Assembly (NCBI GenBank): GCA_018711385.1
Contig: DVIK01000039.1
Location: 1-38,483, forward strand
Length of the DNA stretch: 38,483 nucleotides
Source: Candidatus Coproplasma avistercoris
Lineage (GTDB): Bacteria > Bacillota > Clostridia > Christensenellales > Borkfalkiaceae
Direction: 5' to 3'
Position 1 is the first letter of the stretch; every line of letters starts with the position of its first letter. The notes beneath the pieces are model-generated. The model had not been told where the DNA came from. It saw only the letters and a list, made by a program, of their open reading frames with translations, and made no database searches. This document shows positions 1,965 to 18,300 of this stretch, in pieces. The position numbers were made by a program, and so were the translations under genes.

Positions 1965-4900
1965 ATGGAGCGGTTCGGTGAAAGGTTGAAGTCGCTGCGC
2001 AAGGCGGCGGGAATGACCCAGCAGGAGCTGGCGGATAAACTGAATGTTCACTTGCAGACGGTGTCTAAGTGGGAGAGGGGTGTTTCCGAGCCCGATTTTT
2101 CTCTGCTCGGCGAAATTGCCTCGGCACTTTTTGTGCCGCTGGAAAGGCTGATAGGCGCGCCCGAGGAGTGCGGGCTGTTTTCGGGCAGCTTCGACGTCGT
2201 GCGCGAAGGGAGGGCCATCGCCTCGGCGCGCAGAGCAAGAGGCGAGGGTCAGGACGAAGTGGCCGCTGCCGCGGGCGTATCCTCCGATATCGTGTCCAAG
2301 TGGGAGCGCGGCATTACCTGCCCCGACATGGGTCAGCTTTGCGCGCTCGCCTCGCACTTCGGCACCTCTGCCTCGCAGCTGTACTTCGGCGTCGCGCAGG
2401 ATACGGTGGCCGAGACTCCCGTGCAGATCGTGCGCCGCAGACGGGTGTCGCTTGCGGCGGTGCTTGCCGCGGCGTTCGTTGCGGTGGCGGCGATAGTACT
2501 TGCCATAGTATTGCCGCAAGTACTCACAAGGCATTTCACCGTAACGGTGGACGGAGTGGAATACGAGGTGACCTCTGACGACTGGTTTGTGCCCGCCACA
2601 CCGCAAAAGACAGGCTATGATTTTGAATACTTCGAGGATAGTACGGGGGCAATCGTAAATTTTCCCATAAAGATCACTGATAACGCCGAATATTTCCCCG
2701 TGTTCAGCCTGCGGGAATATACCATAGATTACTGGCTGAACGGCGGCGCGTTCGGCACCGCGCCCGCCTACACCTTCAATATGGAGAGCGGCATGATCTC
2801 GTTGCCCGCGCCGTATAAGGAGGGTGCTTCGTTCGAAGGCTGGTATCTTACGCCCGACTTTTCGGGGCAGGCGGTAGGCGGGGTGGAGTGCTGCTGCTCG
2901 GACATAGCGCTGTATGCAAAGTGGAGCGACGGCACGTTCACCGTGCGCTACGAACTGTGCGGCGGCTCGCTGGAAGCAGGCAACCCCTCGCAGGTCACCT
3001 CCGCGCGGGAAGAGGAGCTTGCCGAACCGGTGCGCGCGGGCTATATGTTTCTGGGCTGGTTCGACTCCCCCGAAGGAGGGAACAGGTACGAAAGCGTGGG
3101 CGGCGAAAGCGCAAAAAATCTCACCCTTTACGCGCGCTGGCAGGCGAGCGGGGACTTCTTTTCGGTGACGTACAACACCCACGGCGGCACGCTTCTCGGC
3201 GAAAATCCCTCTTCTGTGGGCGCGGGCGAAGTGCACACGCTGTACGGCGCGCAGAGGGAGCACTACGACTTTATCGGCTGGAACACGGCGGCCGACGGCA
3301 GCGGCGAGTGGGTGGAAAGATTGTACGGCATCTTTTGCGACATTGAGCTGCACGCCGTATATTCTCCCGAGATATATACCGTGGTCTACGAGCTCGACCG
3401 CGGCACGTATCCGGGCGGCGAAGGCAATCCCAATTCCATTGCTTACGGCGATACGGTGCGCTTGAAGCCGCTGTTAAGGGCTGGGCACACCTTTGTCGGC
3501 TGGTTCACGAGCGAGGTCGGCGGCGAGCGGATAACCGAGATAAATGCAGATAATGTTGCCGAATTGAATACCGTATATGCCCGATTTACCGCAAATAAAT
3601 ATATTGTTGAGCTTGACGCCGCAGGCGGTGAATTTACGCTCGGCGGCGATACATGCGACTATCTTGACTGCGAAATTTATTTCGGCGAGGAACTCGCTTT
3701 GCCCGAATGCGTGCTTGCGGGATATGATTTTATCGGCTGGTACGATGAACTCGGCGAACGGGTGGAGATCATTGATGTCGAAAGCATCGGCAACATGACG
3801 CTCACCGCAAAGTACCGCGAGGCCGGGCTGACGTACGCCCTCGAATGCGTGCCCGGCGGCGGCACTCTCAAATACCCCGCGCCTTCAAAGGTGGCATGGA
3901 ACCAGGTGATCTTGCTGCCCGTGCCCGAGCGGGAAGGCTGGCTGTTCCTCGGCTGGAACACTGCGCCCGACGGCAGCGGAGAATACCTTGAAGCCACGCC
4001 CGCAACGCAGCAGTCCGATCTCACAGTCTACGCCGTATGGCAGGAGGTGATGGTCAACGGCAGCGCCGAAGATTTCAGCTTCAGGATAGGCCCCGAAAGC
4101 GTGATAATCACGGGATATACCGGATCCTTCGGCAAAAATGTAGACCTCGTTATTCCCGCGTATATACAGGATAAGCCGGTAGTCGCGATAGAAGGCAGGT
4201 TCGACAGGTACACAGAGTCTCATCCCGAAATCTTATATCTGAACAGCCTGGTAATACCGGGTACGGTCGAACGCCTCGGCGACAACTGTTTCAACTATAT
4301 GGCAATATCGCAGCCGGTAGTAATACCTGCAGGTGTTAAGCAGATAGGAAAGGAATGTTTCAGAACTTCAGATATTTCCATTGAGTTTGCAGAGGGCAGC
4401 TCGCTCAAATCTATAGGCGAATATGCCTTTTCGGGCGCGTATATACACAATATCCCCGTCCTGCCCGAAGGGCTTGAAAGGCTGGAAAGTTACGCCTTTT
4501 GCGACGCACTGGTGTACAGCGGCGGCATAATTCTGCCCGACACGCTGGAATATATAGGCGGTTATGCGCTGGCGGTCGACCTGTTGATGTCCAACGATCC
4601 TCCCTGCATATATATCCCTTCTTCCGTGCGCACGATAGAGCCGTACGCCTTCGGCGAGGGGGAAACGTACGTCTACACGGCGCTTCCCGAACAGGTCGTT
4701 GCAGGGTTTGCGGAAGGATGGGACTACGGGACAAGGGTGACTTGCCTTGAATCGGAGGTCGAGGGGGTCACGCTCCGCTGCGAGGGAGGCGACGTGTTTG
4801 CAGAGGGCAGCCACATAGTGCTGCCCGAACAGGAAAGGGAGGGCTGCAACTTCATAGGCTGGCGCGAGGTCGGCGGCGACTTCGTAAATTTCAGCTATAT

Positions 4901-5261
4901 CCCGCTCCGCGGCGGCGTAGTGCTCGAACCGGTGTTCGAAGAGGCTTCGCAGGAGGACGGCAGAACGCAATACACCCCCGCGGTGATAGAAGCGGGCAGG
5001 CAATACGAGTTTGTTTTAAGGGGCAGCGACGCGCTGTACTTCGTGCCCGATGTAAGTAAAGGCGGGCGATTCCGCATAACCTACCGCTGCGAGGTCGTCG
5101 GCTGCGGATATGCGCACAACGCGTTCTGTGTTACCGACGAGGCCTTAAATTTCCTCTACAGCGGCGTGGGCTATGAATACGGCGGCGGGACGTTCGCCGT
5201 AAACAGGGACGTGCAGTGCGGCAGCATGCTTCGCTTTACCGTAGAGCTGGAAGTGTTGTGA
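1965..5261 (+). CDS. Membrane-spanning one-component regulator: two XRE HTH domains + InlB-type repeats + BspA-like LRR
   Basis: A 1098-residue protein starting at ATG 1965, supported by the promoter and a GAGGGA ribosome site (the frame is open back to 1845). Residues 7-61 and 84-140 are two XRE/Cro-type helix-turn-helix domains, each with the recognition-helix feature SKWERG. An RRRR stretch (157-160) then a membrane span (161-187) places the HTHs in the cytoplasm. Outside follow about six Listeria-Bacteroides/InlB B-type repeats (roughly 190-690), each with the G-[YF]-x-F-x-GW core and ending in Y-A-x-W-like strands, then a BspA-like LRR_5 segment (about 700-930), one more GW repeat and an unassigned beta-rich tail. 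It resembles a giant ToxR-style sensor: an extracellular interaction surface linked directly to DNA-binding domains. XRE-membrane proteins exist, but such a large adhesin-type ectodomain is unusual. The ligand is unknown; paired pseudo-palindromes upstream could be its own operators. It is monocistronic, ending in a strong terminator. Confidence 0.88.
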   Translation: MERFGERLKSLRKAAGMTQQELADKLNVHLQTVSKWERGVSEPDFSLLGEIASALFVPLERLIGAPEECGLFSGSFDVVREGRAIASARRARGEGQDEVAAAAGVSSDIVSKWERGITCPDMGQLCALASHFGTSASQLYFGVAQDTVAETPVQIVRRRRVSLAAVLAAAFVAVAAIVLAIVLPQVLTRHFTVTVDGVEYEVTSDDWFVPATPQKTGYDFEYFEDSTGAIVNFPIKITDNAEYFPVFSLREYTIDYWLNGGAFGTAPAYTFNMESGMISLPAPYKEGASFEGWYLTPDFSGQAVGGVECCCSDIALYAKWSDGTFTVRYELCGGSLEAGNPSQVTSAREEELAEPVRAGYMFLGWFDSPEGGNRYESVGGESAKNLTLYARWQASGDFFSVTYNTHGGTLLGENPSSVGAGEVHTLYGAQREHYDFIGWNTAADGSGEWVERLYGIFCDIELHAVYSPEIYTVVYELDRGTYPGGEGNPNSIAYGDTVRLKPLLRAGHTFVGWFTSEVGGERITEINADNVAELNTVYARFTANKYIVELDAAGGEFTLGGDTCDYLDCEIYFGEELALPECVLAGYDFIGWYDELGERVEIIDVESIGNMTLTAKYREAGLTYALECVPGGGTLKYPAPSKVAWNQVILLPVPEREGWLFLGWNTAPDGSGEYLEATPATQQSDLTVYAVWQEVMVNGSAEDFSFRIGPESVIITGYTGSFGKNVDLVIPAYIQDKPVVAIEGRFDRYTESHPEILYLNSLVIPGTVERLGDNCFNYMAISQPVVIPAGVKQIGKECFRTSDISIEFAEGSSLKSIGEYAFSGAYIHNIPVLPEGLERLESYAFCDALVYSGGIILPDTLEYIGGYALAVDLLMSNDPPCIYIPSSVRTIEPYAFGEGETYVYTALPEQVVAGFAEGWDYGTRVTCLESEVEGVTLRCEGGDVFAEGSHIVLPEQEREGCNFIGWREVGGDFVNFSYIPLRGGVVLEPVFEEASQEDGRTQYTPAVIEAGRQYEFVLRGSDALYFVPDVSKGGRFRITYRCEVVGCGYAHNAFCVTDEALNFLYSGVGYEYGGGTFAVNRDVQCGSMLRFTVELEVL

Positions 5262-5275
5262 TTTTAATTGCGGGC

Positions 5276-5317
5276 GCCCCGCGCCGCGGCGGATATGCCG
5301 CGGCGCGGGGCATTTTT
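5276..5317 (+). terminator. Intrinsic terminator after the HTH-receptor gene
   Basis: A perfect 15-bp stem GCCCCGCGCCGCGGC (5276-5290) with its complement at 5297-5311, loop GGATAT, followed by ATTTTT. Confidence 0.9.
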
Positions 5318-5425
5318 ATGCCCGCGATCTGCCCACGAACGGGCAATTAAGCGCAAATTTCCTGTAATTAAGCCGAATTTTCCACCGTTTCCGAAAACGC
5401 TGCTCAACAAAACGCTCGCAGAATC

Positions 5426-5434
5426 TGCTACACT
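5426..5434 (+). promoter_or_regulatory. Possible extended -10 promoter for the small winged-helix gene
   Basis: TGC followed by TACACT (5429-5434) fits an extended -10 element, with no good -35. The IR ACTA-TCGG-TAGT (about 5432-5443) directly follows and could be an operator. Confidence 0.35.
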
Positions 5435-5507
5435 ATCGGTAGTTGCAACAGGGGCGCCGCCCCGAAAAAATCAAAGGAGACATCAAAGCGCTTTATGAAA
5501 TTTTACC

Positions 5508-5744
5508 ATGAAAAAAAGTTACATAATTTTGCAGATGTACGACGCCCTGCGCCTAGGCGCATGCATTAAAATACGCGACTGCTGCGGTGTATACGGCATA
5601 TCGGTTTCCACATTCCGCAGGTATATGGCGTTCCTGCGCGCATACTTTTCCGAAATGTACGGACTGGATATAGTGTACGATGCGTATCTTTCGTCATACA
5701 GCCTTACCGCGGACGGCTCCGTGCGTGAAAAACTTGCCACCTAA
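5508..5744 (+). CDS. Small orphan winged-helix DNA-binding-like protein
   Basis: A 78-residue protein. The segment from residue 5 to 60 resembles the N-terminal HTH of DeoR/WYL-type regulators: a helix, then GVYGISVSTFRRYMAFLR as the recognition region, then a wing-like IVYDAYLSSYSL. No effector domain follows, so it is far shorter than those regulators and may be a stand-alone DNA binder or an accessory protein. AAAGGAG (5473-5479) lies 28 bases before ATG 5508, too far for ideal use. An overlapping 24-codon ORF starting at ATG 5495 is better placed relative to that site, so translational coupling through a leader peptide is possible. Function not recognised. It may be the local regulator of the permease that starts 70 bases downstream. 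Confidence 0.6.
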   Translation: MKKSYIILQMYDALRLGACIKIRDCCGVYGISVSTFRRYMAFLRAYFSEMYGLDIVYDAYLSSYSLTADGSVREKLAT

Positions 5745-5768
5745 TTTCTGCGCGCGTGCGCTAAATTG

Positions 5769-5797
5769 TTGTGCGATGCGCCGTCAGGTGATATAAT
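5769..5797 (+). promoter_or_regulatory. Sigma-A promoter of the permease gene
   Basis: TTGTGC (5769-5774), 17-base spacer, TATAAT (5792-5797). It implies a start site near 5804 and a short leader before ATG 5814. Confidence 0.7.
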
Positions 5798-5813
5798 CGC
5801 TTGCGGTGATATT

Positions 5814-6944
5814 ATGAACAAGGTGTTTTCCGCCGCGTGGCGGTTTGCAAAACGCGAGGCGGTGCTGTGCATAGCCGTCCTGCTCGCCGTGATCTCCATG
5901 TGCTTCGTGCCGCCGGATATCGGCTACCTCGACTACATCGACTGGGACACTATCGCCCAGCTGTTTGCGCTCATGACGGTCATGAAGGGCTTTCAGTCGG
6001 CGGGGCTGTTCTCCTTTCTGGCGCACAAGCTGCTCAAAAGGGCAGGCAGCACCCGCAAAATAATGCTTGTGCTCGTCTTTCTGCCCTTCTTTTTCAGCAT
6101 GGTCGCCACCAACGACGTCGCGCTCATCACCTTCGTGCCGTTCGCGCTGGTGGTGCTCAGGCTCTCGGACAGCCTGCGGCTGGCCGTGCCGCTCGTCATA
6201 TTGCAGACGCTCGCCGCAAACCTGGGCAGCATGCTCACGCCGATGGGCAATCCGCAGAACCTGTATCTGTATGCGCAGTCGGGGATGTCGTTCGGGGAGC
6301 TGGTGCTCACCATGCTGCCGTACTGCGCGCTGTCCGCCGTAGGACTGTTTGCCGTTGTCATGTGTTTCAGAAGCGCGCCCGTCGCATGCGGGGTGCCCTC
6401 CGCGCCGCTCGGCAGCGTCTTCGGCCTTGTATGGCCGGCCGTCGGGTTCGTGCTGTGCATGCTCGCGCTGTTCGACATAATACCGCCGCTCATAGTCGCC
6501 GCGGCGCTCCTGGTGTTCGGGCTGATCGCGGCAAGGGGAGTGCTCGCAAAGGTGGACTATTCCCTGCTCGGCACGTTTGCCGCATTGTTCATATTCATCG
6601 GCAACATAGGCAACATCGGCCCCTTCCGCGATTTTCTCTCCTCCGTCATCTCCGGCCGCGAGACTCCCGTCGCGGTGCTCGCCAGCCAGATAATAAGCAA
6701 CGTGCCCGCCGCGCTGCTGCTTTCGGGGTTCTCCGACGGCTGGCACGCGCTCGTCGTGGGCTGCAACCTCGGCGGGCTGGGCACGCTGATAGCCTCCATG
6801 GCCAGCCTCATCTCCTACAAGGAGATAGCCCGCAACTTTCCCGAAAAGCGCGTCAGGTACCTGCTCGTGTTCACTGCATACAACGCCGCCTTTCTTGCCG
6901 TGCTGATGGGGCTGTGGGCGCTGCTCGAATTTGTAATACTTTAA
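5814..6944 (+). CDS. SLC13/ArsB-superfamily permease (anion or organic-acid transporter)
   Basis: A 376-residue integral membrane protein with about 10 hydrophobic segments. Features typical of the ion transporter (IT) superfamily that includes SLC13, CitMHS and ArsB/NhaD are the conserved loops NDVALITFVPFA (about residues 86-97), TPMGNPQNLYLY and, in the second half, SNVPAALLLSG followed by NLGGLGTLIASMASLISYKE, which are the two inverted-repeat substrate-binding hairpins. Substrate cannot be read from sequence; dicarboxylate, citrate or another anion, coupled to Na+ or H+, is plausible. The start ATG 5814 is chosen because the promoter lies just upstream and inside the 16-codon extension back to TTG 5766; GGTGAT (5805-5810) is a weak ribosome site. 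Single gene with its own terminator. Confidence 0.85.
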   Translation: MNKVFSAAWRFAKREAVLCIAVLLAVISMCFVPPDIGYLDYIDWDTIAQLFALMTVMKGFQSAGLFSFLAHKLLKRAGSTRKIMLVLVFLPFFFSMVATNDVALITFVPFALVVLRLSDSLRLAVPLVILQTLAANLGSMLTPMGNPQNLYLYAQSGMSFGELVLTMLPYCALSAVGLFAVVMCFRSAPVACGVPSAPLGSVFGLVWPAVGFVLCMLALFDIIPPLIVAAALLVFGLIAARGVLAKVDYSLLGTFAALFIFIGNIGNIGPFRDFLSSVISGRETPVAVLASQIISNVPAALLLSGFSDGWHALVVGCNLGGLGTLIASMASLISYKEIARNFPEKRVRYLLVFTAYNAAFLAVLMGLWALLEFVIL

Positions 6945-6956
6945 CATCTCCTTAAA

Positions 6957-6981
6957 GGGGCGCCGGGCGCGCCCCTTTTTT
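6957..6981 (+). terminator. Intrinsic terminator after the permease gene
   Basis: GGGGCGC (6957-6963) and GCGCCCC (6969-6975) form the stem, followed by six T (6976-6981). Confidence 0.85.
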
Positions 6982-7044
6982 AACGCCCGTTACAGTTCCG
7001 TTCTTTCATTTTTTGTTAATTTTTTGTCAAAGTAAAAATTTATA

Positions 7045-7054
7045 AACTATGGTT
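7045..7054. promoter_or_regulatory. Candidate operator, upstream copy (AACTATGGTT)
   Basis: A one-mismatch copy of the perfect palindrome at 7093-7102, in the same AT-rich context (TAAAC-ATGGTTAA). It lies 8 bases upstream of the -35 box. The two centres are 48 bases apart and bracket the promoter. The likely ligand is the DtxR-like protein encoded first in the operon, but that is inference. Confidence 0.5.
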
Positions 7055-7062
7055 AATTTTTC

Positions 7063-7091
7063 TTGACAGCCGGAGACGAAAGTTATAGAAT
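7063..7091 (+). promoter_or_regulatory. Sigma-A promoter of the haem-uptake operon
   Basis: TTGACA (7063-7068), exactly 17 bases, TAGAAT (7086-7091). Start site expected at about 7097-7098, inside the downstream palindrome. Confidence 0.85.
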
Positions 7092-7092
7092 A

Positions 7093-7102
7093 AACCATGG
7101 TT
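7093..7102. promoter_or_regulatory. Candidate operator, downstream copy (AACCATGGTT)
   Basis: A perfect 10-bp palindrome immediately after the -10 box, covering the expected transcription start. Occupancy would block RNA polymerase. Paired with the copy at 7045-7054. Confidence 0.6.
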
Positions 7103-7138
7103 AAGAATTTTACGGCATATACATATTTTACCATTTGC

Positions 7139-7206
7139 CTATCCGGAAGTTCCCGCGCCGTTGCGGGGCCTTCCGGATAGAGTGCTTTTACGGGGCGTTA
7201 CCCCGT
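7139..7206 (+). promoter_or_regulatory. Structured 5' leader of the haem-uptake operon
   Basis: Two consecutive hairpins lie in the ~125-base leader. The first has an 11-bp outer stem CTATCCGGAAG (7139-7149) with CTTCCGGATAG (7170-7180) and an inner CCCGC/GCGGG. The second is ACGGGG (7190-7195) with CCCCGT (7201-7206), ending 9 bases before the ribosome site GGAGGGGG (7214-7221). There is no T-run, so a translational or RNA-stability role is more likely than termination. I do not recognise a known riboswitch class. Confidence 0.5.
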
Positions 7207-7223
7207 GACTAACGGAGGGGGAC

Positions 7224-7580
7224 ATGACTGTTTCCGAATTGCGGTATCTCATGGCGGTCGCCCGCACGGGCGGCGACTGCGGGCGGACGAGCGGCTCAGA
7301 GGTAGCGCGCTGTCTGAACGTTTCGCGCGTGAGCGTGTTCCGCGCTCTGGGCAGACTAGAGCGCGCGGGACTCGCCTTAAAGGGCGAAGACAAGTGCGTG
7401 CGCCTCACGGAGGCGGGGGTGCGCGTGCTGGAAGAGTATTCAGCGCTCTCGCGCATGCTGAAAGCTCATCTTGTGCGGGCGGGGCTTGCAGAGGGCGTGG
7501 CGGAGAGCGAGTCGCTTAAAATGGCGTGCGCCATGGGTGAAGAGGCGCGCAGGGCCGTCTTTGCCTCGTTCGGCGATTGA
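7224..7580 (+). CDS. DtxR-family-like transcriptional regulator (short form, degenerate metal site)
   Basis: 118 residues with an N-terminal winged helix (about 1-65; SEVARCLNVSRVSVFRALGRLERAG is helix-turn-helix 2-3 and VRLTEAG the wing) and a helical segment (66-115) matching the DtxR/IdeR/MntR dimerisation domain; the C-terminal SH3-like domain is absent, as in MntR. In a manual alignment with corynebacterial DtxR, the ligands His79, Glu83, Cys102, Glu105 and His106 fall on Tyr72, Ser76, Leu/Ser, Ala and Cys here, so the classical metal sites look lost; Cys102 of this protein may be a new ligand. As first gene of the haem operon with palindromes around its promoter, it is probably the local repressor, sensing haem, metal by another geometry, or nothing. 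ATG 7224 follows GGAGGGGG. Confidence 0.7.
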   Translation: MTVSELRYLMAVARTGGDCGRTSGSEVARCLNVSRVSVFRALGRLERAGLALKGEDKCVRLTEAGVRVLEEYSALSRMLKAHLVRAGLAEGVAESESLKMACAMGEEARRAVFASFGD

Positions 7581-7641
7581 TTGCGGTATATTGCCGTATC
7601 CGAGAAAAAACATTGCGCCTTTAAGGCGGAAGGAGGACAAC

Positions 7642-8229
7642 ATGAAAAAGTTACTTGCTGCCGTTGCGGCAGCCGCGTGCGCACTCGCGGCAGGGCTTAC
7701 GGCCTGCGCGCAGCCCGAAACCCCCGGCACATATTCGGTGGAGGCGGAGCTGAGCTGTTACATATCGGCCATGGGCGGCATAGAGTTCGGCAAACCCCTG
7801 CTCGAAAGGACGGAATACACCGTCGCGGAGGACGGTTCGCTCAGCATCACGCTGCGCCTTATAAAGAGCAGCGTAAAGATATTTTCGATAGAATGCTTCA
7901 CGTTTGTGGACGCCGACCCGCCCGAAACGGGAATAAACAACAAGGGCAGCCTGAAAAACGGCACGATCGGCATATACGGCGGGGACGGCAGCCTGGTTAC
8001 GGAGGGGGTGTCTTACACCCTCAGCGAAGACACCGCCACCAACAACACGCAGGAAGAGGTGCATTACGTGGACAGCATCACCCTCCCCGTTGAGGAAAAG
8101 AGGCAAAGTTATATGCTCGCGCTGTGCATAGATTCGCAGGTGATGGGCGCGCAGTTCGCGGCGGACAGCTACGAAGCCACGCTCACGGTGGACTGGGATA
8201 CCGCCTCGGCTGCGGGGGAGGCGGAGTGA
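7642..8229 (+). CDS. Haem-operon lipoprotein made of one unnamed surface domain
   Basis: 195 residues. Signal peptide with lipobox LTAC, lipidated Cys22, so anchored to the outer face of the membrane. Residues about 30-185 form a single beta-rich domain that is clearly homologous to residues 135-306 of the large LRR lipoprotein at the end of this operon. Shared features, in order, are YI-x-AMGG-x-EFG, C-x-TF-x-D, NGTIG-x-Y, G-x-LVT-x-GV-x-Y-x-LS and [DN]SQVMG-x-QF. I do not know a family name. Because it is followed directly by an IsdE-like haem-binding protein, a role as haem receptor or relay, possibly as a very divergent NEAT-like module, is the best inference. GGAGG precedes ATG 7642; its stop overlaps the next start (TGATG), so translation is coupled. 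The longer frame upstream overlaps the regulator and is not used. Confidence 0.8.
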   Translation: MKKLLAAVAAAACALAAGLTACAQPETPGTYSVEAELSCYISAMGGIEFGKPLLERTEYTVAEDGSLSITLRLIKSSVKIFSIECFTFVDADPPETGINNKGSLKNGTIGIYGGDGSLVTEGVSYTLSEDTATNNTQEEVHYVDSITLPVEEKRQSYMLALCIDSQVMGAQFAADSYEATLTVDWDTASAAGEAE

Positions 8230-9125
8230 TGCGGCCGAAGAACATTGCGGCGCTTGCAGGCGCCGCATGCCTTGCGTTTGCCGCCTCTGTCCTCGGAGGC
8301 TGCGGGCTTGCGGGCGAGCGCTCGCAACCCTACGGCATAGCCACCACGTCCATGGCCGTCTGCCAGATACTCGACAGACTGGAGATAGACGAAGTCGTGG
8401 GTATACCTTCCGCCGCGGAGGATATCGACCTGCCCGAACGCTACGAGGGCGTGGCGACCATAGGCAACGCCATGACACCCGACATGGAGATACTCAGCAA
8501 CATAAATCCCGAGCTGGTGCTCGTGCCGCGCACGCTCGAAGCAGGGCTCTCGGCTCAGTTTGCAAACGCCGGCATAAAGGCGCAGTACATCGACCTTTCG
8601 AGCGTGGAGGGCATGTACGATGACATAGACGCCCTCGGCAGGCAGTTCGGCAGGGAGCAACAGGCCGCCGCGATGCGCGCGGAGTACGAGACTTATGTCG
8701 AGGAGCACAGGGTCACGGCCGAACAGCCGCAGACCGTGCTCGTGCTCATGGCATATCCCGGGGGCTTTTACCTCATCGTCACCGCCGATTCCTATGTTGG
8801 AAGCCTGATAGAACTGGCGGGCGGCACCAACGTCTACGGCAAGGACTATGTGGACGACGGCTCGGGCGTGGCGGCGGTGAACCAGGAGCACATGATCCAG
8901 ACCGACCCCGACAAGATATGCGTGTTTGCGCACTACGATGAGGAGAACGCCTTTGCATATATGCGCAACGAGATAGCCACGGGCGAGCTCTGGCAGAGTT
9001 TCAGAGCGGTAAGGGAGGGCGAGGTGTATTACCTCTCCTCCGACGACGCCTTCGGGATGAGCGCCAACCTCGACTGGTACACGGCGTTCGATTTTCTCAC
9101 GGAAACGGTGTTCGCGCAGGCATAG
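8229..9125 (+). CDS. isdE: Haem ABC transporter substrate-binding lipoprotein, IsdE type
   Basis: 298 residues: signal peptide with lipobox LGGC (Cys25), then a class III periplasmic-binding (BtuF/FecB-like, PF01497) fold. The sequence follows IsdE closely: GIATTSMAVCQILDRL, LPERYEGVATIGNAMTPDME, YIDLSSVEGMYDDID, SYVGSLIELAGGTNVYG and FGMSANLDW. Staphylococcal IsdE binds haem through Met78 and His229; here Met82 (GNAMTPD) and His235 (FAHYDEE) occupy the matching positions, which is strong support for haem rather than siderophore or cobalamin. It receives haem from surface proteins and delivers it to the permease encoded next. Start ATG 8229 overlaps the previous stop by one base and the permease starts 3 bases after its stop. 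Alternative substrate: another tetrapyrrole. Confidence 0.88.
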   Translation: MRPKNIAALAGAACLAFAASVLGGCGLAGERSQPYGIATTSMAVCQILDRLEIDEVVGIPSAAEDIDLPERYEGVATIGNAMTPDMEILSNINPELVLVPRTLEAGLSAQFANAGIKAQYIDLSSVEGMYDDIDALGRQFGREQQAAAMRAEYETYVEEHRVTAEQPQTVLVLMAYPGGFYLIVTADSYVGSLIELAGGTNVYGKDYVDDGSGVAAVNQEHMIQTDPDKICVFAHYDEENAFAYMRNEIATGELWQSFRAVREGEVYYLSSDDAFGMSANLDWYTAFDFLTETVFAQA

Positions 9126-9128
9126 TAT

Positions 9129-10142
9129 ATGGGCAATGAACAAAAAAGACGCAAAATAAGCGGGCTTGTCAAGGTTATACTTGCATTCTCGGTCACGGCG
9201 GTACTGCTGATTGTGTTCATCTTCCTGGCGGCAGCGACGGGCGGAATCAAGGTGTCCTTTTTGCGCATACTGCGCGGCATATTCGTTGAATACGACGAGG
9301 AAGTGGCCATAATCGTGCAGCTGCGCTTTCCGCGCATATTCGTCGCCATTCTGGGCGGCATGGCCATGTCCGCCGCGGGCGTTATGACCCAGGCGGTGAT
9401 GCGCAGCCCGCTCGCCGACCCCGGCATAATAGGCATAGGCGCCGGCTCCTCGTTCGTGGCGGTGCTCGTCACGGCGTTTCTGCCCTCGCTCTACTACCTG
9501 TCGCCGCTGTTTTCCTTCTTCGGCGGACTGCTTGCCTTCGCCATAGTGTACGTCCTTTCGTGGAAGGGCGGGCTCAGCCCCGTGCGGCTGATACTTGTCG
9601 GCATAGCCGTCGACGCGCTCTTTTCGGGGCTGTCTTCGGCGTTCAACCAGATGACGGGCGGCAACTTCACGGGCGCGGCAAGCATAGTCGAATCCAACAT
9701 ATCGCTCAAAAGCTGGGACGATGTTGTTGTGCTCGGCATATATGTGGCGATAGGTGCGGCGCTGTGCGTGTTCTGCGTGCGGCAGTGCAACCTGCTCGCC
9801 CTCTCCGACAGGCTGGCGTGCAGCCTTGGCGTAAACGTGTCGCGCACCCGCCTTCAGGTCTCGGTGGCGGCGGTGTTCCTTGCCTCGGCGGCCACGGCGG
9901 TGGTGGGCAGCATAAGTTTCCTCGGCCTGATAGTGCCGCACATAGCCCGCCTGCTCGTGGGCAACGATCACAAAAAGCTCATACCGTACAGCGCGCTGCT
10001 CGGCGCACTGTTCTTCCTCGTCGCCGACACCGTGGGCAGGTGGATAGCCTACCCCTACGAGATAGGCGTGAACATCATAATGTCTGTCGTGGGCGGCCCG
10101 CTGTTCATAGTGCTGCTGCTCAGGAGCAAGAAGTATGCCTGA
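9129..10142 (+). CDS. FecCD-family ABC transporter permease (haem)
   Basis: 337 residues with about 8-10 membrane spans, typical of the BtuC/FecCD (PF01032) permeases that work as homodimers with a type II importer ATPase. Diagnostic segments are LRFPRIFVAILGGMAMSAAGVMTQAVMRSPLADP-I-G (about 64-100), the coupling region near SLGVNVSRTRLQV and GSISFLGLIVPHIARLLVG (about 260-280), a conserved signature of the family. It would correspond to IsdF/HmuU. No good ribosome site precedes ATG 9129; it probably depends on coupling from the binding-protein gene, whose stop is three bases upstream. Its own end overlaps the ATPase start by 8 bases. Confidence 0.92.
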   Translation: MGNEQKRRKISGLVKVILAFSVTAVLLIVFIFLAAATGGIKVSFLRILRGIFVEYDEEVAIIVQLRFPRIFVAILGGMAMSAAGVMTQAVMRSPLADPGIIGIGAGSSFVAVLVTAFLPSLYYLSPLFSFFGGLLAFAIVYVLSWKGGLSPVRLILVGIAVDALFSGLSSAFNQMTGGNFTGAASIVESNISLKSWDDVVVLGIYVAIGAALCVFCVRQCNLLALSDRLACSLGVNVSRTRLQVSVAAVFLASAATAVVGSISFLGLIVPHIARLLVGNDHKKLIPYSALLGALFFLVADTVGRWIAYPYEIGVNIIMSVVGGPLFIVLLLRSKKYA

Positions 10143-10914
10143 AAACGCGTTTGAAATGCACTCGGTCTCCTTCGGGTACGAACGGGGGACGCGCGTGCTC
10201 AAAGATATAAACCTCGCGGTGCCCGCGGGCAAAGTGACGGCGCTCATAGGCCCCAACGGCTGCGGAAAGACCACCGCGTTTGCCCTTCTTTCAAGGATAT
10301 ACAGGCCCGCTTCGGGGAAGATACTGTTCTTCGGGCGGGATATATCGGCCATACCGCGCAGGGAATACGCGCAGAGCGTCGCCGCGGTGCACCAGTACAA
10401 CACCGTACCCGACGACATGACGGTGCGCGAACTTGTGGCAATGGGCAGGACTGCCTACCATAACGTGTTCTTTTCGCACTCAACGCAGGCCGACCTCGAC
10501 GCGGCGGAGCGCGCCATGGAGGAGACCCGCACCTCGGCTTTTGCCGAAAGGCGGGTAAAGGAGCTCTCGGGCGGGCAGATGCAGCGCGTATGGCTGGCGC
10601 TTGCAATGGCGCAGACCGACAGGGCGCTGCTGCTCGACGAGATAACCACCTACCTCGACGTGCACTACCAGCTGGAGATGCTCGGGCTGATACGCTCGCT
10701 CAACGAGCGGCACGGCACCACCGTGCTGATGGTGCTGCACGACGTCAACCAGACCCTGCGCTACGCCGACCACGTGATAATGATGAAGGAGGGCGGCGTG
10801 CTTGCGGCGGGCGCGCCCGACGAGGTGATAACGGACGGCATGCTGCGCGAAACTTACGGCGTGCAGGCGCAGATAGCCCGCGTAAGCGACAGAAAGATAT
10901 GCATATTCGGCTGA
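10135..10914 (+). CDS. ABC transporter ATPase of the haem importer (FepC/HmuV type)
   Basis: 259 residues. Walker A GPNGCGKTT (39-47), Q-loop near HQYN, signature LSGGQMQRV (about 144-152), Walker B ALLLDE followed by ITTYLD, and H-loop VLHDVNQ. The usual Pro after the Walker B Glu (DEPTTYLD in this subfamily) is Ile here; the catalytic Glu is kept, so activity is expected. It powers haem import with the FecCD permease. The ATG overlaps the permease end by 8 bases, a tight translational coupling. Confidence 0.93.
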   Translation: MPENAFEMHSVSFGYERGTRVLKDINLAVPAGKVTALIGPNGCGKTTAFALLSRIYRPASGKILFFGRDISAIPRREYAQSVAAVHQYNTVPDDMTVRELVAMGRTAYHNVFFSHSTQADLDAAERAMEETRTSAFAERRVKELSGGQMQRVWLALAMAQTDRALLLDEITTYLDVHYQLEMLGLIRSLNERHGTTVLMVLHDVNQTLRYADHVIMMKEGGVLAAGAPDEVITDGMLRETYGVQAQIARVSDRKICIFG

Positions 10915-10962
10915 AAGGCCGGTTGCGGATAAATTCAGATCAATTATTAAAAGGAGATATAG

Positions 10963-13900
10963 ATGACAACAACAAAGAAGAGATTGGGCAAGATCGCATT
11001 CGGCGCGCTCAGCGCCGCGGTAGCGCTCTGCTCGGCGTTCACTCTCTCCGCCTGCAACCCCGGCGGACAGAGCGGCACGGGCGGCACGGACGGCGCGGGG
11101 GACGGCCAGACCACCCTGCCCGAGGAGAGGACGTACACCGTGACGTTTTCGTCCGAAGGCGGGTATGTGTACGGCACGCAGCAGGTGAAGGAGGGGCAGA
11201 AGGCCACCCTGCCCGAATACACCGACGCGCTCGGCAACGCCATCACACAGTGGTATTACAGGTACGAAAGCGGCGCGACCGAACCGTGGTCGTTCGCGGG
11301 CTATACGGTGACCGAGGACATGACCCTCTATGCGGCGGAAGCCGACGAGCAGCCTGCGGGCACGACGTACGCTCTCGACGCCTCGCTGAGCGCCTACATA
11401 GACGCCATGGGCGGCGTGGAGTTCGGCGAAGGGCTGTATAAGGGCGGCACCATAACCGACCTCGGCGACGGGCGCTATCTGCTCGGCATAGACACCGACA
11501 AGAGCGAAGTGGTGATATACACCGTTCAGTGCGACACGTTCATCGATCCTTACGGCACAGGCGCCACGGGCGAGGGCGAGATCGAAAACGGCACCATAGG
11601 CTATTACAACGCCGAAGGCGAGCTTGTGACCGACGGGGTAACCTACGAGCTCTCTGCCGAGGACGACCTCGTAAACGCGCCCGACCCCGAGGGCGGCAGC
11701 AACTATCAGAAGGTGCGCTACGTCACGCACATCGACATGGTGCTGGAAAACGTAGGGCCTTTGGAGGAGCTCGACGAACTGGAACTCACGTTCTACATAA
11801 ACTCGCAGGTGATGGGCGGACAGTTCGGGTACGGCGCGGCGTCCGATTCCATGCATGCGGCGGTGCTCACCATATCCGGAATGACCGAAGTCGAGCAGCC
11901 GCCCGAAGAGGAGATCAACGGAATAGAGGACGCCCGCATAGACGAAGACGGGCACCTCATTCTCACCCTGACAGGCGGCAGGGAGATCGACGCCGGCAAG
12001 GTAACGGGCAGCGACGGCGCGCAGGGCACGGGCATATCCAACATCATCTGTTCCGAAGGTACGCTGCACATATATCTTACCAACGGCGACCACTATCAGT
12101 TCGACCTCTCGGGCGCGGGCGAACAGCTGCCCGACAACGTCACCGAGACGGCCGCATCCTGCACGCAGGACGGCGTACGCACTACCTACACCGACGCCTC
12201 TAAGACGGAGGTGGCGGGCATACGCACCATAGAGCGCGCCACGGGCCACACCTATGCGGACGGCGTCTGCACTGTCTGCGGCCACAGCCAGCTTGACGAC
12301 ATGACTTTTGCCGAGAGCGATGACGGCAATTCGTACACTCTCACCGCATACGAAAGCCGCGCATGGGACACCGTTGCCATCCCCGATACCTGCAACGGCA
12401 AACCCGTTGCGGCGATAGCCGACGGCACCACGCTCATGGGCATGGTGCTGCAGACCGGCGTGTTCATGGGGCACACCGAAATAGAGCGCGTTATAGTCGG
12501 CGAAAACTTAAAGACGGTGGGCATAGGCGCCTTTTCGGGCTGCACCTCGCTTGAAAGCATAGACCTCGGCGGCGTGACGGGGCTGGGCAAGTGGGCGTTC
12601 CAGAACTGCTCTTCCCTTGCGGAGGCCGCATTGAACGAAGGTATAACGGAGCTTGCCGACTATGTGTTCACGGGGTGCGCCTCGCTCGAAGACATAGCGC
12701 TGCCCGCAGGCCTCGTCTCGATAGGTTCGAGCACCTTCTCCGGCTGTTCGGCGCTGCAATCGATCTCGCTCCCCTCGGGGCTGGAAAGCATAGGCGCAAG
12801 CGCCTTTTCGGGCTGCTCGTCGGCGGCGGGCGCGCTCACCATACCCGCTTCTCTCACCTCGATGGGCAGGGGCGCGTTTTCGGGCTGCTCCTCGATAGAG
12901 GCCGTGACAATAGAGGCAGTCATGGACTCGCTGCCCAACGCCGCATTCCAGAGCTGCACCTCGCTGCTCACGGTCAATTCCTCCGAGGAGGGGACATACG
13001 ATCTTTCCGGTTTCACTGCGATAGACTCCAACGTCTTCCTCGGCACGCCCGTGCAGAGGGTGATATTCGATGGAGAGCTCGCCTCGGTGGGCGGCATGGC
13101 GTTCCAGGGCTGTGCGCAGCTCGTGCAGCTCGACTTCGGAGAAAACACGGCGGCGCTCGCCTTCAACGGCCAGCAGACCTTCCAGAACTGCACCGCGCTT
13201 GAAGAGGTAAGCCTTCCCGCAAACACCGCAAAACTGTCGAACTACATGTTCGACGGCTGCACCGCGCTCTCCTCCGTAGGGCTGGGCAGCGCCATAACCG
13301 AGATCCCGGGCAACTGCTTCAGGGGCTGCACTTCGCTTGCCTCCGTATCCGTGCCCGACAGCGTTGAAAAACTTGCAAGCGGCTCGTTCGACGGCTGCAC
13401 CTCGCTCGAAAGCATATCGTTCGGCGAACAGACCTCCGTAACGGAGCTTGCGGGCATATCGGGCTGCACCTCGCTTAAAAGACTGACCATACCCGCCACG
13501 GTGACAAAAATTTCCTCCTGCGGCAGCAATTACTGCCTTATCGAGATAGTCAACCTCAGTTCGGTAGACCTCACCTGCGGCGGCACCGATAACGGAATGA
13601 TAGCCATGTATGCCGAAACTATCGTAACTTCGGCGCCCGAAAGCGGCTATGTGCAGAGCGGCGACTATACGCTCTATCACGACGGTGCGGCAGGCGGCGA
13701 AAACTGGTTCGTTACGGCATACGGCGGCACTGCCGAGGGCGGCACGCTCACCCTGCCCGAAAGTTTTTCGGTGAACGGCGGGCAGGTCACCACCTACGGC
13801 ATAGCCGCCCGCGCGTTCTACGGCAACGGCGGTATTGTAACGCTCAATATTCCCTCGTCCGTAACCTCCGTCAGCGCGTATGCCTTTGCGGGCTGCACCT

Positions 13901-15123
13901 CGCTCACGGCAGTTAACTTCGAAGGGGAGAGCGCTCTTGCGGACATCGGCGCATACGCGTTCAGCGGCGACTACCGCCTGCGCGATATAACGCTGCCCGA
14001 CAGCCTCGTATCGATAGGCGCCTCGGCGTTCGCGAACTGCTACGCGCTCAAGACGATAAATATCCCCGAAAACGTGCAGACGATCGACGCAAGCGCCTTT
14101 TCGGGCTGCACGCTCGCCGAAGTGCGCAACCTTGCGGGCGCGGAGGTGGCAAATATCCCCGCGGCGCTCAACGTCTACACGGCGGCGAGCGGACAGAGCA
14201 GGCTGATAACCGAAGGCGACTTCACCTTCATATATATCCCCGCCGAGGGGGAGGAAGAGCCCTTTGCGGCGCTCGTATCTTACGGCGGCTCGGCAAGCGT
14301 GGTAACGCTGCCTTCGGGCTTTACCGCTCAGGACGGGCAGGTGACTTCCTACGAAATATTTGCGGGCGCGTTTGCGGGAAGGGAGATCTCCGCAGGGGTG
14401 GCGCTCTCTTCCGCGGTGACCGCCATAGGCGATTATGCGTTCTACCGCACGCAGACGATGCGCATCTCGTTCAGCGGCGAAAATAACCTTGTCAGCATAG
14501 GCGAATACGCTTTTGCCTATTCCACGGTGTGGATGTTCAACACCGTCACGGTCGGGCTGCTCAACCTCGACGGGATCGTAAACATAGGCGAATATGCCTT
14601 TAATAACGCCTCCCGCCTGACTTCGGTGAACATAGCATCAAGCGTTGAAAGCATAGCCGCGCGGGCGTTCCAGTCCTCGGAGATAGAGAGCATCTCGTTC
14701 GCCGCGGAGCGCGGAACGGCGCTCACGCTCGCAACGTATGCGTTCGCCTATATGAGCTCGCTTGAAAGCGTCACCGTTCCCGGCTATATTACCGAACTTC
14801 CCCAGAACCTGTTCCGCGGCTGCTCGGCGCTTGCCGATGTGGTGCTCGAAGAGGGCGTGCAGATAATTAACAACAATGTATTCTACGACTGCGACGCGCT
14901 GGAAAGCATAGTGCTGCCCGCAAGCATGACGTCCACAACCGCCTCGTGGTCGAGCAATTCGGGCATACGCAGCGTGTATGTGAGCGGGGCAAAGGAGGAC
15001 TTCGGAGGGCTGAAGTTCAGCTCTGCGCTCGACGTGTATTACCTCTGCGAGGAGGAGCCCATCACCGACGGCATGTTCTGGCACGAGGTCGGCGGCGAGC
15101 CCGCCGTGTGGCCCATGGTATAA
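10963..15123 (+). CDS. Giant BspA-like LRR lipoprotein carrying the haem-operon domain
   Basis: 1386 residues, lipobox LSAC with Cys31, so attached to the membrane rather than the wall. Order of parts: Gly-rich linker; one InlB/Flg_new-like repeat (about 57-127); a ~170-residue domain (135-306) homologous to the small lipoprotein encoded at the start of this operon; a short GREIDAG-type beta module with DGAQG linker (315-395); a C-x-x-C knuckle (HTYADGVCTVCGH, about 428-440); then some 900 residues of BspA-type LRR_5 repeats with the recurring core F-x-GC-[TS]-[SA]-L-x-x-[IV]-x-[LI]-P. GGAG precedes ATG 10963 and no terminator separates it from the ATPase 48 bases upstream, so it belongs to the haem operon. 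Likely role: outermost haem or haemoprotein capture, with the LRR part binding host or food protein. The interruption of repeats near 880-930 is natural repeat decay, not a frameshift. Confidence 0.85.
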   Translation: MTTTKKRLGKIAFGALSAAVALCSAFTLSACNPGGQSGTGGTDGAGDGQTTLPEERTYTVTFSSEGGYVYGTQQVKEGQKATLPEYTDALGNAITQWYYRYESGATEPWSFAGYTVTEDMTLYAAEADEQPAGTTYALDASLSAYIDAMGGVEFGEGLYKGGTITDLGDGRYLLGIDTDKSEVVIYTVQCDTFIDPYGTGATGEGEIENGTIGYYNAEGELVTDGVTYELSAEDDLVNAPDPEGGSNYQKVRYVTHIDMVLENVGPLEELDELELTFYINSQVMGGQFGYGAASDSMHAAVLTISGMTEVEQPPEEEINGIEDARIDEDGHLILTLTGGREIDAGKVTGSDGAQGTGISNIICSEGTLHIYLTNGDHYQFDLSGAGEQLPDNVTETAASCTQDGVRTTYTDASKTEVAGIRTIERATGHTYADGVCTVCGHSQLDDMTFAESDDGNSYTLTAYESRAWDTVAIPDTCNGKPVAAIADGTTLMGMVLQTGVFMGHTEIERVIVGENLKTVGIGAFSGCTSLESIDLGGVTGLGKWAFQNCSSLAEAALNEGITELADYVFTGCASLEDIALPAGLVSIGSSTFSGCSALQSISLPSGLESIGASAFSGCSSAAGALTIPASLTSMGRGAFSGCSSIEAVTIEAVMDSLPNAAFQSCTSLLTVNSSEEGTYDLSGFTAIDSNVFLGTPVQRVIFDGELASVGGMAFQGCAQLVQLDFGENTAALAFNGQQTFQNCTALEEVSLPANTAKLSNYMFDGCTALSSVGLGSAITEIPGNCFRGCTSLASVSVPDSVEKLASGSFDGCTSLESISFGEQTSVTELAGISGCTSLKRLTIPATVTKISSCGSNYCLIEIVNLSSVDLTCGGTDNGMIAMYAETIVTSAPESGYVQSGDYTLYHDGAAGGENWFVTAYGGTAEGGTLTLPESFSVNGGQVTTYGIAARAFYGNGGIVTLNIPSSVTSVSAYAFAGCTSLTAVNFEGESALADIGAYAFSGDYRLRDITLPDSLVSIGASAFANCYALKTINIPENVQTIDASAFSGCTLAEVRNLAGAEVANIPAALNVYTAASGQSRLITEGDFTFIYIPAEGEEEPFAALVSYGGSASVVTLPSGFTAQDGQVTSYEIFAGAFAGREISAGVALSSAVTAIGDYAFYRTQTMRISFSGENNLVSIGEYAFAYSTVWMFNTVTVGLLNLDGIVNIGEYAFNNASRLTSVNIASSVESIAARAFQSSEIESISFAAERGTALTLATYAFAYMSSLESVTVPGYITELPQNLFRGCSALADVVLEEGVQIINNNVFYDCDALESIVLPASMTSTTASWSSNSGIRSVYVSGAKEDFGGLKFSSALDVYYLCEEEPITDGMFWHEVGGEPAVWPMV

Positions 15124-15165
15124 AATTACTGCCCTGTCAGGGCACTGTCCTGTCGGACGCACTTT

Positions 15166-15200
15166 CGCGGGCGCGGCATACAGCCGCGCCCGCGATTTTT
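15166..15200 (+). terminator. Intrinsic terminator of the haem operon
   Basis: CGCGGGCGCGGC (15166-15177) pairs perfectly with GCCGCGCCCGCG (15183-15194), followed by ATTTTT. Confidence 0.9.
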
Positions 15201-15248
15201 CCGTGCGGCGTAATTGGAGTAATAAATTGCACCGTTTAAGAAAAAATC

Positions 15249-15278
15249 TTGCGGCGCGCGCAAGCGTTATATTATAAT
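15249..15278 (+). promoter_or_regulatory. Sigma-A promoter of the first GH3 gene
   Basis: TTGCGG (15249-15254), 18-base spacer, TATAAT (15273-15278), 65 bases before the GTG start. The leader holds a GC-rich inverted repeat around 15281-15313. Confidence 0.65.
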
Positions 15279-15342
15279 CCCGCTGGCGGGCGCGGCTTCG
15301 CTGCCGCCTGCCGCTTATGATCTTGCGACGGGAGGAGAAATC

Positions 15343-18300
15343 GTGAAAGCGACGGGCATACTTTACAGGGCGGGCATATCTGCCGCGCTGCTTGCGCTGT
15401 TTTTTACGGCGTGCGGCGACGGCGCGGGAGGCGCAGACGGCGATGGGGATGCCGCCGCAAACTATGTTTCGCAATACCGCGCTCAGACGTCGTGCGCCGA
15501 CGAGGCGCTTGCCCTTGCCAATGAAGTCAACGAAAGCATCGTGGAAGAGGGCATAGTGCTTATGAAGAACGAAGGCGGTGCGCTGCCGATAGCCTCCGGC
15601 AGCAGGATAACCGTGTTCGGCAAGAACTCTGCAGACCCGGTCTACGGCGGAGGCGGATCGGCTTCGGGCGCAGACGGTTCGGGCCAGGGCGGGATGATGT
15701 ACAGCGATCTGTACGGCAGCCTCGAGAAAGCGGGCTTTGCGCTCAACCCCGTCATGCGCGCATTTTACGAGGACGACTCAGCTTCCGGCAGCGGGCGCGA
15801 CGGCGGTTCGGGCACGGGCGAGGTGGCGACCGTTACGGGCGAAACGCCCCTGCCGTCGTATACCGCCGAAGTGCGTGCAAGCTATAACGACTATAACGAT
15901 GCCGCCATAGTCTTTCTTTCGCGTGCGGGAGGCGAGGGCGCCGATCTTATGACCAACTACACCTCGTCCGTCGCGGGCAGGAGCGACTATAACGACGACG
16001 GCGATGCCGCTTCGGGTGATCATTACCTCGAGACGGACGACAACGAAGAGGCCCTCATTGCAGAGGCCAAGGCAAATTTCGACAGGGTGGTGGTAGTGCT
16101 CAACGTCGGTACGTCCTTCGAGCTCGGCACGCTCGAAGACGACGAGGGCATAGATGCCGTGCTGTGGCTGGGTTTCCCGGGCGGGAACGGTATGGACGCC
16201 CTCGGCAGTGTGCTCAGCGGCGAGGTCAACCCCTCGGGCAGGACGGCGGACATATACTCCGCCGATTTCAAGGCCGATCCCACGTTCGCAAATTTCGGCG
16301 GCAACTATGCTTCGCAGTATCTCACAAGCAGTGGAAGGGACACGGGCGTGAATTTCGTGGAGTACGACGAGGGCATATATACGGGCTACCGCTATTACGA
16401 GACGCGCGCCTTCGAAGAGGGCGGCGACTGGTACGAAGAGAACGTCGTGTATCCCTTCGGCTACGGCCTCTCCTATACCCGATTTGAATGGGACGTGACG
16501 TTCCGCACGGACAAACTTACCGCCGACGGCGGAATAGTTGCCGACGTTACCGTCACAAACACGGGCGATATGGCGGGCAAGGATGTGGTGCAGCTCTATT
16601 ACAGCGCGCCGTATTGCGAAGGCGAGGTCGAAAAGGCACACGTCGTGCTGGGCGCGTTCGCCAAGACGGGACTCATTCAGCCCGGCATGAGCGACACCGT
16701 CACTCTTTCGCTTACTGTGCGCTCCATGGCCTCCTACGACTACTCCGACGCCAACGGCAACGGCAACCGCGGCTACGAGCTGGACGCCGGCAGGTATGTG
16801 ATGTATGTCGGCAAAAATTCCCATGCCTGGGCAGAGGACGGCACAAGCAAGACGTATTCGCTGGGCGAGACGGTCATCTATCAGGAGGACGGGACTACGG
16901 GCGCCGCCGTAGAGAACAGGTTCGGCTACATGAGCGACTATTTCGATGCGGACGGCACGGGCATATTTGCGGGCAACTCCTCCGTGATGTCGCGCGCGGA
17001 TTTCGAGGGGACGTTTCCGAAGCCCGTCACCGACGAACAGCTGCGCATATCGGAGGATGAGCGGCAGGCATATATATACGAGGAGGTTTCGGAAGAATAT
17101 GACGAGGGCAAGCCGTGGCATACCGACGAAATGCCCTCTCAGCCGCAGACCACATCCGGCGGGATAAGCGCCTCAGAACTCGTCGGTCTGGATTACGGCG
17201 ACCCGCTGTGGGAAAAGTTCATGGATAACCTTTCGGTAGAGGATATGCGCGATCTTATCGTGGACGGCTACTTCGTTACGGGCGCGCTCGAAGAGGTCGG
17301 CCTGCCAATGTCGGTCACGCCCGACGGGCCGGCAGGGTTTGTGCAGGGCTCGGGCTATAACTGGGTGGGCAACACCTGCTTTTACGCCTCGCCCATAGTC
17401 GTTGCCTCCACATGGAACTCCGCGCTCGCCCGCGCCATGGGGGAGGCCGTGGGCGAAGAGGGCATATGGGGCGGCGAACAGGGCATACAGGGCGGATACA
17501 ACGGCTGGTACGCCCCCGGCGGCAATCTGCACCGCTCGCCGTTCGGCGGCCGCAACTTCGAATATTACTCCGAAGATCCTCTTCTGTCGGGGAAAATGTG
17601 TGCCGCGGTGGTGGCGGGCGCGCAGTCGAAGGGCGTATTCGTAATGCTCAAACACTTTGCGCTCAACGATCAGGAGGGCAACCGCGCCGACCTCGCCACC
17701 TGGGCGGACGAGCAGACCATGCGCGAGATTTACCTCAAAGCCTTCGAGATCCCCGTAAAGGAGGGCGGTGCAAGGGGTATAATGGCCGCGTTCAACCGCA
17801 TGGGCAATCTGTGGTCGGGTTACAGCTACGAGCTGCTCACAGAGGTGCTGCGCGAAGAGTGGGGATTCGAGGGGCTGGTGATAACCGACTGGGCGAACTA
17901 TAACTGGTTCATGGACGGCAACAAGATGATCCGCGCAGGCGCCGACCTGTGGCTGGGCAACGGCGAGGACGGCCGCGCCCAGGGCGACATAGTCGGCACC
18001 GAAAGCGCCGTCTGCACGCCCACGCACGTTGCAGCCATAAGGCGTGCCGCAAAGAACATAATATATACCGTGGTCAATTCCAACGCAATGAACAGGCTGG
18101 GCGCGCGCTATTCCGCCGAACTGTACGAAGAAGGCCGTGCGCCCGATCTCGGTGCGTTCGCTCGCGGCGGAAGCATCTCATTTGATGCGTCGAGCAGCAT
18201 ATACACGGGCTATGAGTATGTGCTGTACGGCGGGCCGAAGTGGATATCCGTTGACGGGGCCACGGGCAGGGTGAGCGGCAAAGTGGCCGCGGATGCGCCG

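Follow-up and report, generated by a model that had tools for sequence, protein, structure and literature searches.

The window analyzed here, a stretch of 38,483 nucleotides from Candidatus Coproplasma avistercoris (contig DVIK01000039.1), contains a gene cluster that probably encodes a haem importer of the kind represented by Shr/Shp-Hts and Isd, in which a divergent NEAT-fold domain would relay haem through a pair of Met ligands and a leucine-rich repeat (LRR) lipoprotein would serve as the receptor. The domain, of approximately 155 to 173 residues, is common to a 195-residue lipoprotein and the 1386-residue LRR lipoprotein, and the genes for an IsdE-like binding protein, a FecCD permease, and an ATP-binding cassette (ABC) transporter ATPase lie between these two genes, overlapping or 3 bases apart (Table 1). 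An earlier reading of this DNA (the original prediction) had described the shared domain and its position around the importer genes, and both observations held in our analysis.

BLASTP aligned residues 30 to 183 of the small lipoprotein with residues 135 to 304 of the LRR protein at 68 of 172 identical positions (40%; 97.4 bits; E value, 1e-27), and the next-best stretch in the same comparison reached 18.5 bits. The five motifs by which the domain had been recognized were all present, in order, in both copies, and these were the only two copies found in the source genome (1.38 Mb; 85% complete). Confident structure models of both copies had NEAT domains as their best PDB matches (34 of the 35 top entries for copy 1 and all 31 for copy 2). 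An immunoglobulin-like beta-sandwich of the NEAT type is predicted for both copies in these models, with moderate Z scores and with a long insertion relative to NEAT domains at residues 61 to 94, between strands. Because NEAT entries dominate both fold comparisons, we rejected a new fold, one of the two options in the original prediction. The other option, a very divergent NEAT-fold domain, is supported by the modeled folds and by genome context, and it is not supported by sequence profiles, as discussed below.

To place the domain in its genomic context, we sought close relatives by one scan of 84,980 species genomes, which gave 15 loci, all in metagenome-assembled genomes of Bacillota and most labelled Clostridia, Clostridiales, Oscillospiraceae, or Eubacterium. 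The genes for IsdE and FecCD, located by tblastn, adjoin the domain in 14 of these loci and that for the importer ATPase in 13, the exceptions for the ATPase being L014, where FecCD and the second domain copy are also cut short, and L023, at a contig end. A domain protein is encoded directly upstream of isdE in 13 of the 15 loci, as it is in the window, and a second one is encoded downstream in 13 of 15, one of them truncated; L021 instead encodes a single two-domain protein downstream. A family-profile search of the whole 15 genomes returned 33 domain matches, all at one locus per genome. In the neighborhood survey, the copies with visible neighbors lay beside haem-type transport genes, with a single degraded remnant as the exception. 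The domain was rare: a phylum sample of 398 genomes contained it once, in the source genome itself, and an order sample of 200 contained it in 3. Its absence from five other sampled species of the window's genus indicates a patchy presence. Viral contigs gave 119 pattern stretches, none of which was a relative. A single-sequence match at L006 in G127 (E value, 8e-4) was not recovered with the family profile and was taken as chance; L010 in G181 is a weak single-sequence match (E value, 7e-4).

The position of the first domain protein recalls that of Shp. Five comparison genomes, identified by searching for NEAT, Shp, or regulator sequences, contain the same kind of cluster with recognized parts. 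In all five, a Shp-like protein with a membrane-anchor-like tail is encoded directly upstream of isdE, and in four a NEAT surface protein precedes it, with none detected in L107. The new-domain protein occupies this same slot. Among 14 first-slot proteins with the new domain, nine carry the same C-terminal tail, and the other five, which form the window's clade, carry a lipobox. It is in the genomes of this lipobox clade that the LRR lipoprotein is the second domain protein, a form found in 4 of 16 genomes, with a fifth (L011) cut by a contig end before the LRRs. In a tree, the LRR-protein copies (support, 100/100) stood apart from the five window-type first copies (99/95), so that, inside this clade, the two roles predate the divergence of the species; overall, the first-slot copies did not form one group.

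We examined conserved residues in a 31-row alignment of domain copies. Left out of it were the first copies of L022 (cut at the 5' end) and L007 (also cut), the second copy of L014 (truncated), the third copy of L013 (cut at the 3' end), and the G127 remnant, as well as L023, which is the same contig end as L007. Only two Met columns, at positions 15 and 139, were conserved in at least 60% of rows; Met is present at each of them in 30 of 31 rows, and both residues were missing from the same row. In the model, the column at position 15 falls between strands 1 and 2 and that at position 139 in the turn that links strands 127-136 and 140-143, and segments of these two kinds hold haem in NEAT domains. 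They also match the segments that carry the ligands of Shp, in an inexact register. Cited papers are represented here and below by the portions of their text available to us; these give Met66 and Met153 as the haem ligands of Shp (PMC5026354) and describe the NEAT domains of Shr as likewise using two Met residues (PMC12796733). Together, these observations suggest that the domain most likely holds haem by its Met pair, Met44 and Met168 in the small lipoprotein and Met149 and Met284 in the LRR protein. The sole copy of the 31 without both Met residues (L015:4700-5179) resides in a locus with four domain copies and is possibly a non-haem-binding helper. A Cys ligand was considered and rejected as not general, since Cys10 occurs in 20 and Cys56 in 24 of the 31 rows.

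Two other readings of the domain are unlikely to a similar degree. The first is that it binds haem proteins or other proteins rather than haem, which would pass straight to IsdE; a haemoglobin-binding NEAT domain that does not bind haem has been described (PMC4143258), and one row lacks both Met residues, but the pair is kept in the other 30 copies, including the single-domain proteins of the Shp slot. The second is that haem or another porphyrin is held by Tyr83, alone or paired with Met, rather than by two Met residues. Tyr83 is invariant in 31 of 31 rows, even in the row without either Met, but it lies in the long inter-strand stretch (residues 61 to 94) and not in the last hairpin, where NEAT haem ligands sit; moreover, both Met residues are nearly invariant and were lost together.

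The importer itself points to haem as the probable substrate of the system. TIGR03659 (IsdE) was the best family for the binding protein (E value, 4.4e-68) and its 229.6 bits lie below the equivalog cut-off of 298.65; the next-best profile scored 56.7 bits. As the original prediction had stated, the Met and His expected of an IsdE protein are present: Met82 and His235 were retained in every one of the 15 IsdE proteins aligned, with His235 the only conserved His and two further Met columns also invariant. Met82 and His235 are spaced nearly as Met79 and His229 of HtsA, an equivalence resting on spacing. We consider it quite improbable that the substrate is instead a different tetrapyrrole or a chelated metal (a dietary porphyrin, cobamide, or siderophore). 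Such a substrate would agree with the sub-equivalog score and with FecCD and ATPase scores that spread over transporters of several substrates, but not with the lead of the IsdE profile over all others, the invariant Met and sole conserved His, or a domain protein in the Shp slot.

It is just as improbable that the LRR protein is an adhesin with a copied domain and no part in transport. BspA-type LRRs are common parts of adhesins, and the LRR form is confined to the few genomes noted above; nevertheless, the LRR gene follows the ATPase gene in each of them, and the other loci mostly encode another second domain protein downstream of the importer genes. We retain a haem importer with an LRR receptor as the favored interpretation. 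In this importer, the LRR lipoprotein would capture haem, or a protein that carries it, on the outside of the membrane, and its NEAT-fold domain would pass haem to that of the small lipoprotein. The latter, which takes the place occupied by Shp in other clusters, would transfer haem to Met82 and His235 of IsdE for import through FecCD and the ATPase. Expression of the importer would probably be regulated by iron or haem.

Some observations weigh against this interpretation. Sequence profiles give no confirmation of NEAT kinship. No family in the Pfam, NCBIfam, or PDB sequence profiles matched the shared domain, a non-haem family included. The NEAT profile (PF05031) matched none of the 31 copies at E values up to 1, and HemeBinding_Shp (PF11545) did not match the domain. 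Neither profile matched the source genome; 14 control genomes were also without a match, and other genomes were matched. With hhalign, the domain family reached a weak 14% against three Shp-like domains, and the best stretch against the Shp-like set alone placed the first Met approximately 4 residues out of register. Against NEAT and Shp sequences together, the VMG of the family fell on the MG of the Shp-like set in an alignment that as a whole was not significant. The NEAT haem motifs SxxxxY and YxxxY are absent by eye from the alignment and column counts, Met replacing the Tyr of the last hairpin. Proof of NEAT kinship by sequence, sought with these profiles and three hhalign runs, was negative or weak throughout, and the NEAT option of the original prediction, supported by structure comparison, was not supported by profile-profile comparison. 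Furthermore, a partial copy in G127 (L008:1079-1360) has an in-frame stop and lacks the first Met, with no IsdE or FecCD within the 14 kb examined; it is a probable remnant.

Large NEAT proteins of G184 (L108:8827-11460 and 2097-6995) match PF05031 over only positions 2-58 and 2-79 of the 119 in the profile. They have DWSSL or DWSTL at the end of their NEAT domains, resembling the DW of the new domain, and form a possible bridge. Kinship with these intermediate NEAT domains, likely by eye from the DW ending, was rejected when hhalign gave only 1.8%.

The system resembles Shp/HtsABC of Streptococcus pyogenes in having, in the clusters compared, a gene directly upstream of that for the haem-binding ABC lipoprotein whose product has a single exported domain, here of predicted NEAT fold, two conserved Met residues, and, in the tailed first-slot proteins, a C-terminal tail. 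It differs from Shp in the lack of a profile match, the inexact Met register, the lipid anchor of the window's clade, and the copying of the domain in a second protein. Similarly, NEAT domains of IsdA, IsdC, IsdX, and Hbp2 share with the new domain a haem importer context and the best fold match of both models, whereas sequence match and canonical YxxxY (by eye) are absent and the 61-94 insertion is added. ChtA, ChtD, and ChtE of Clostridium perfringens form a clostridial NEAT haem system with a Shp-like ChtE (PMC5026354), and their NEAT domains are recognized as such, unlike the window's domain. A 2014 survey described clostridial NEAT domains that are devoid of YxxxY but conserve a Met within an extended loop (PMC4143258), and these perhaps follow the same trend as the domain studied here.

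The original prediction had regarded a membrane-lipidated BspA-like haem receptor as new, which overstates the novelty. NEAT domains and LRRs are already combined in the haem or haemoglobin receptors Hal (PMC8977872), IlsA (PMC3923779, which also names Shr and Hal), and Shr (PMC12796733), and, like them, the window's protein joins a NEAT-type domain (by predicted fold) to LRRs within a single surface protein of what is probably a system for haem uptake. Unlike them, it is anchored to lipid by a lipobox, has BspA-type LRRs, and carries an unrecognized domain. Binding of haem has also been shown for HupY, an LRR protein with no known haem-binding domain reported in the available text (PMC6593403). 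As in HupY/LrrG of streptococci, the LRR part of the window's protein matches NF047961, but with 106.1 bits against a cut-off of 1250 and the best stretch in the LRR part. The architecture of a NEAT-LRR receptor is therefore known, and what is new is the sequence family of the domain, the lipid anchor, and the BspA-type LRRs. We found no paper on this domain in the literature searched (haem, NEAT, LRR, Shp, and gut), in which a sequence motif is not searchable.

The first gene of the unit encodes an MntR/MarR-like regulator that was absent from the original prediction. It is separated from the small lipoprotein gene by 61 bases, and the ATPase and LRR genes are 48 bases apart. The single promoter-terminator unit proposed originally is no more than plausible from regulator to LRR gene, as the promoter and terminator are consensus matches only, with 4 promoter-like sites in the region versus 2.9 expected by chance and 14 terminator-like sites versus 7.2. 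Between promoter and regulator gene, the leader contains an 18-bp inverted repeat (89%) with a 6-base loop at 7139-7180, and no Rfam family matched at gathering score in 6800-15500, this repeat included. In two related loci (L018:13318-16430 and L019:14198-16385), a CydD-like ABC exporter gene lies downstream of the operon, followed in L018 by a second ABC exporter gene; L019 also has a DUF454 gene.

Table 1. Features of the probable haem import locus (window positions) and of fusion genes in other loci
Feature	Position	Strand	Remarks
Candidate operator copy 1, ATAAACTATGGTTAA	7042..7056	.	direct repeat; 6 bases 5' of -35
Candidate operator copy 2, ATAAACCATGGTTAA	7090..7104	.	93% identical to copy 1; overlaps -10
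Sigma-70-like promoter TTGACA-17-TAGAAT	7063..7091	+	11/12 consensus letters; not evidence of function
Regulator, winged-helix, MntR/MarR-like, 118 aa, without NEAT part	7224..7580	+	MarR_2 E 6.4e-9; MntR PRK11050 E 1.7e-7 but 31 of 153 bits
Lipoprotein, 195 aa, Shp slot, single predicted NEAT-fold domain	7642..8229	+	lipobox LTAC by eye
New NEAT-fold domain (predicted), copy 1	7729..8196	+	candidate haem ligands Met44 (7771-7773), Met168 (8143-8145)
IsdE-like haem-binding lipoprotein (predicted), Met82 and His235	8229..9125	+	ATG at 8229; profile match
FecCD permease	9129..10142	+	E 1.9e-81
ABC transporter ATPase	10135..10914	+	E 4.8e-31
LRR lipoprotein, 1386 aa: List_Bact repeat, predicted NEAT-fold domain, BspA-type LRRs	10963..15123	+	LRR_5 E 4.1e-140; Flg_new E 8.3e-7; lipobox LSAC by eye
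New NEAT-fold domain (predicted), copy 2	11362..11880	+	candidate ligands Met149, Met284
Intrinsic terminator-like hairpin, 13-pair, GC-rich, then TTTTT	15165..15195	+	consensus match
Winged-helix-NEAT fusion gene	L016:4252-5067	-	profile match
Winged-helix-NEAT fusion gene	L017:6554-7351	-	profile match
Winged-helix-NEAT fusion gene	L020:161-991	+	profile match
Winged-helix-NEAT fusion gene	L108:11882-12745	-	profile match
Winged-helix-NEAT fusion gene	L105:9232-10104	-	profile match
Winged-helix-NEAT fusion gene	L106:6146-7000	+	profile match
Winged-helix-NEAT fusion gene	L107:9013-9870	+	profile match

Upstream regions of the related operons contain candidate operators. Palindromes were seen by eye 3 bases before TTGACA in L011, L012, and L024, and the pattern GTT[AC]GC-N4-GC[TG]AAC, picked by eye from the same regions, outscored shuffled sequences in 9 of the 12 upstream regions examined (a score reached by at most 5 of 200 shuffles; L015, L021, L022, and L023 were outside the 12). 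This palindrome lies 5' of the first operon gene in L011, L012, L013, L014, L016, L017, L020, L024, and L025, in multiple copies in several, and in L012 and L024 both the GTTAGC and the GTTCGC variant precede the operon. The idea of one operator motif common to every locus was rejected, as the shuffle test did not detect it in the window, L018, or L019.

The regulators of the window, L011, L012, and L024 have no NEAT part. In the genomes of L016, L017, and L020, and in G184, G435, G349, and G373, an MntR-like winged helix is fused to a NEAT-like C-terminal part in frames of 276 to 295 aa. PDB profiles matched the winged helix of this family at residues 25-116 (E value, 3e-9) and its NEAT-like part to IsdX1 at residues 137-196 (E value, 3e-5); PF05031 reached an E value of 1.4e-6 in L016, under the cut-off, and was not reached in L017. 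Four fusion sequences showed no signal peptide by eye. In L016, L017, L105, L106, and L108, less than 0.5 kb separates the fusion gene from the haem genes; the distance is approximately 3 kb in L107 and 7 kb in L020, and L014 retains a C-terminal piece 0.3 kb before the operon. Full-length fusions occurred in 4 of 311 genomes of a class sample, in which nine of ten other matches were winged helix only and one (G432) was partial. From sequence, we would guess that the fusion is a candidate cytoplasmic haem-sensing regulator. The literature searched, with the available portions of two haem-regulator reviews (PMC11442138 and PMC12670364), names no winged-helix-NEAT haem sensor, so that these proteins, if haem is their ligand, would be a kind of haem sensor unnamed in those portions.

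A broader picture, which we offer tentatively and at somewhat less than even confidence, is that in gut Clostridia an unrecognized bis-Met NEAT branch has replaced Shp and the receptor NEAT domains in whole haem operons, and that, close to kindred operons, a NEAT domain has moved into the cell, where, joined to the winged helix of an MntR-like protein, it senses haem and switches the importer. Conservation of the Met pair provides a direct test of how far haem ligation survives the loss of NEAT sequence. NEAT, Shp, and NCBIfam profiles miss this branch, and a census of haem systems in gut anaerobes that relies on NEAT profiles may therefore underestimate haem scavenging by commensal Clostridia.
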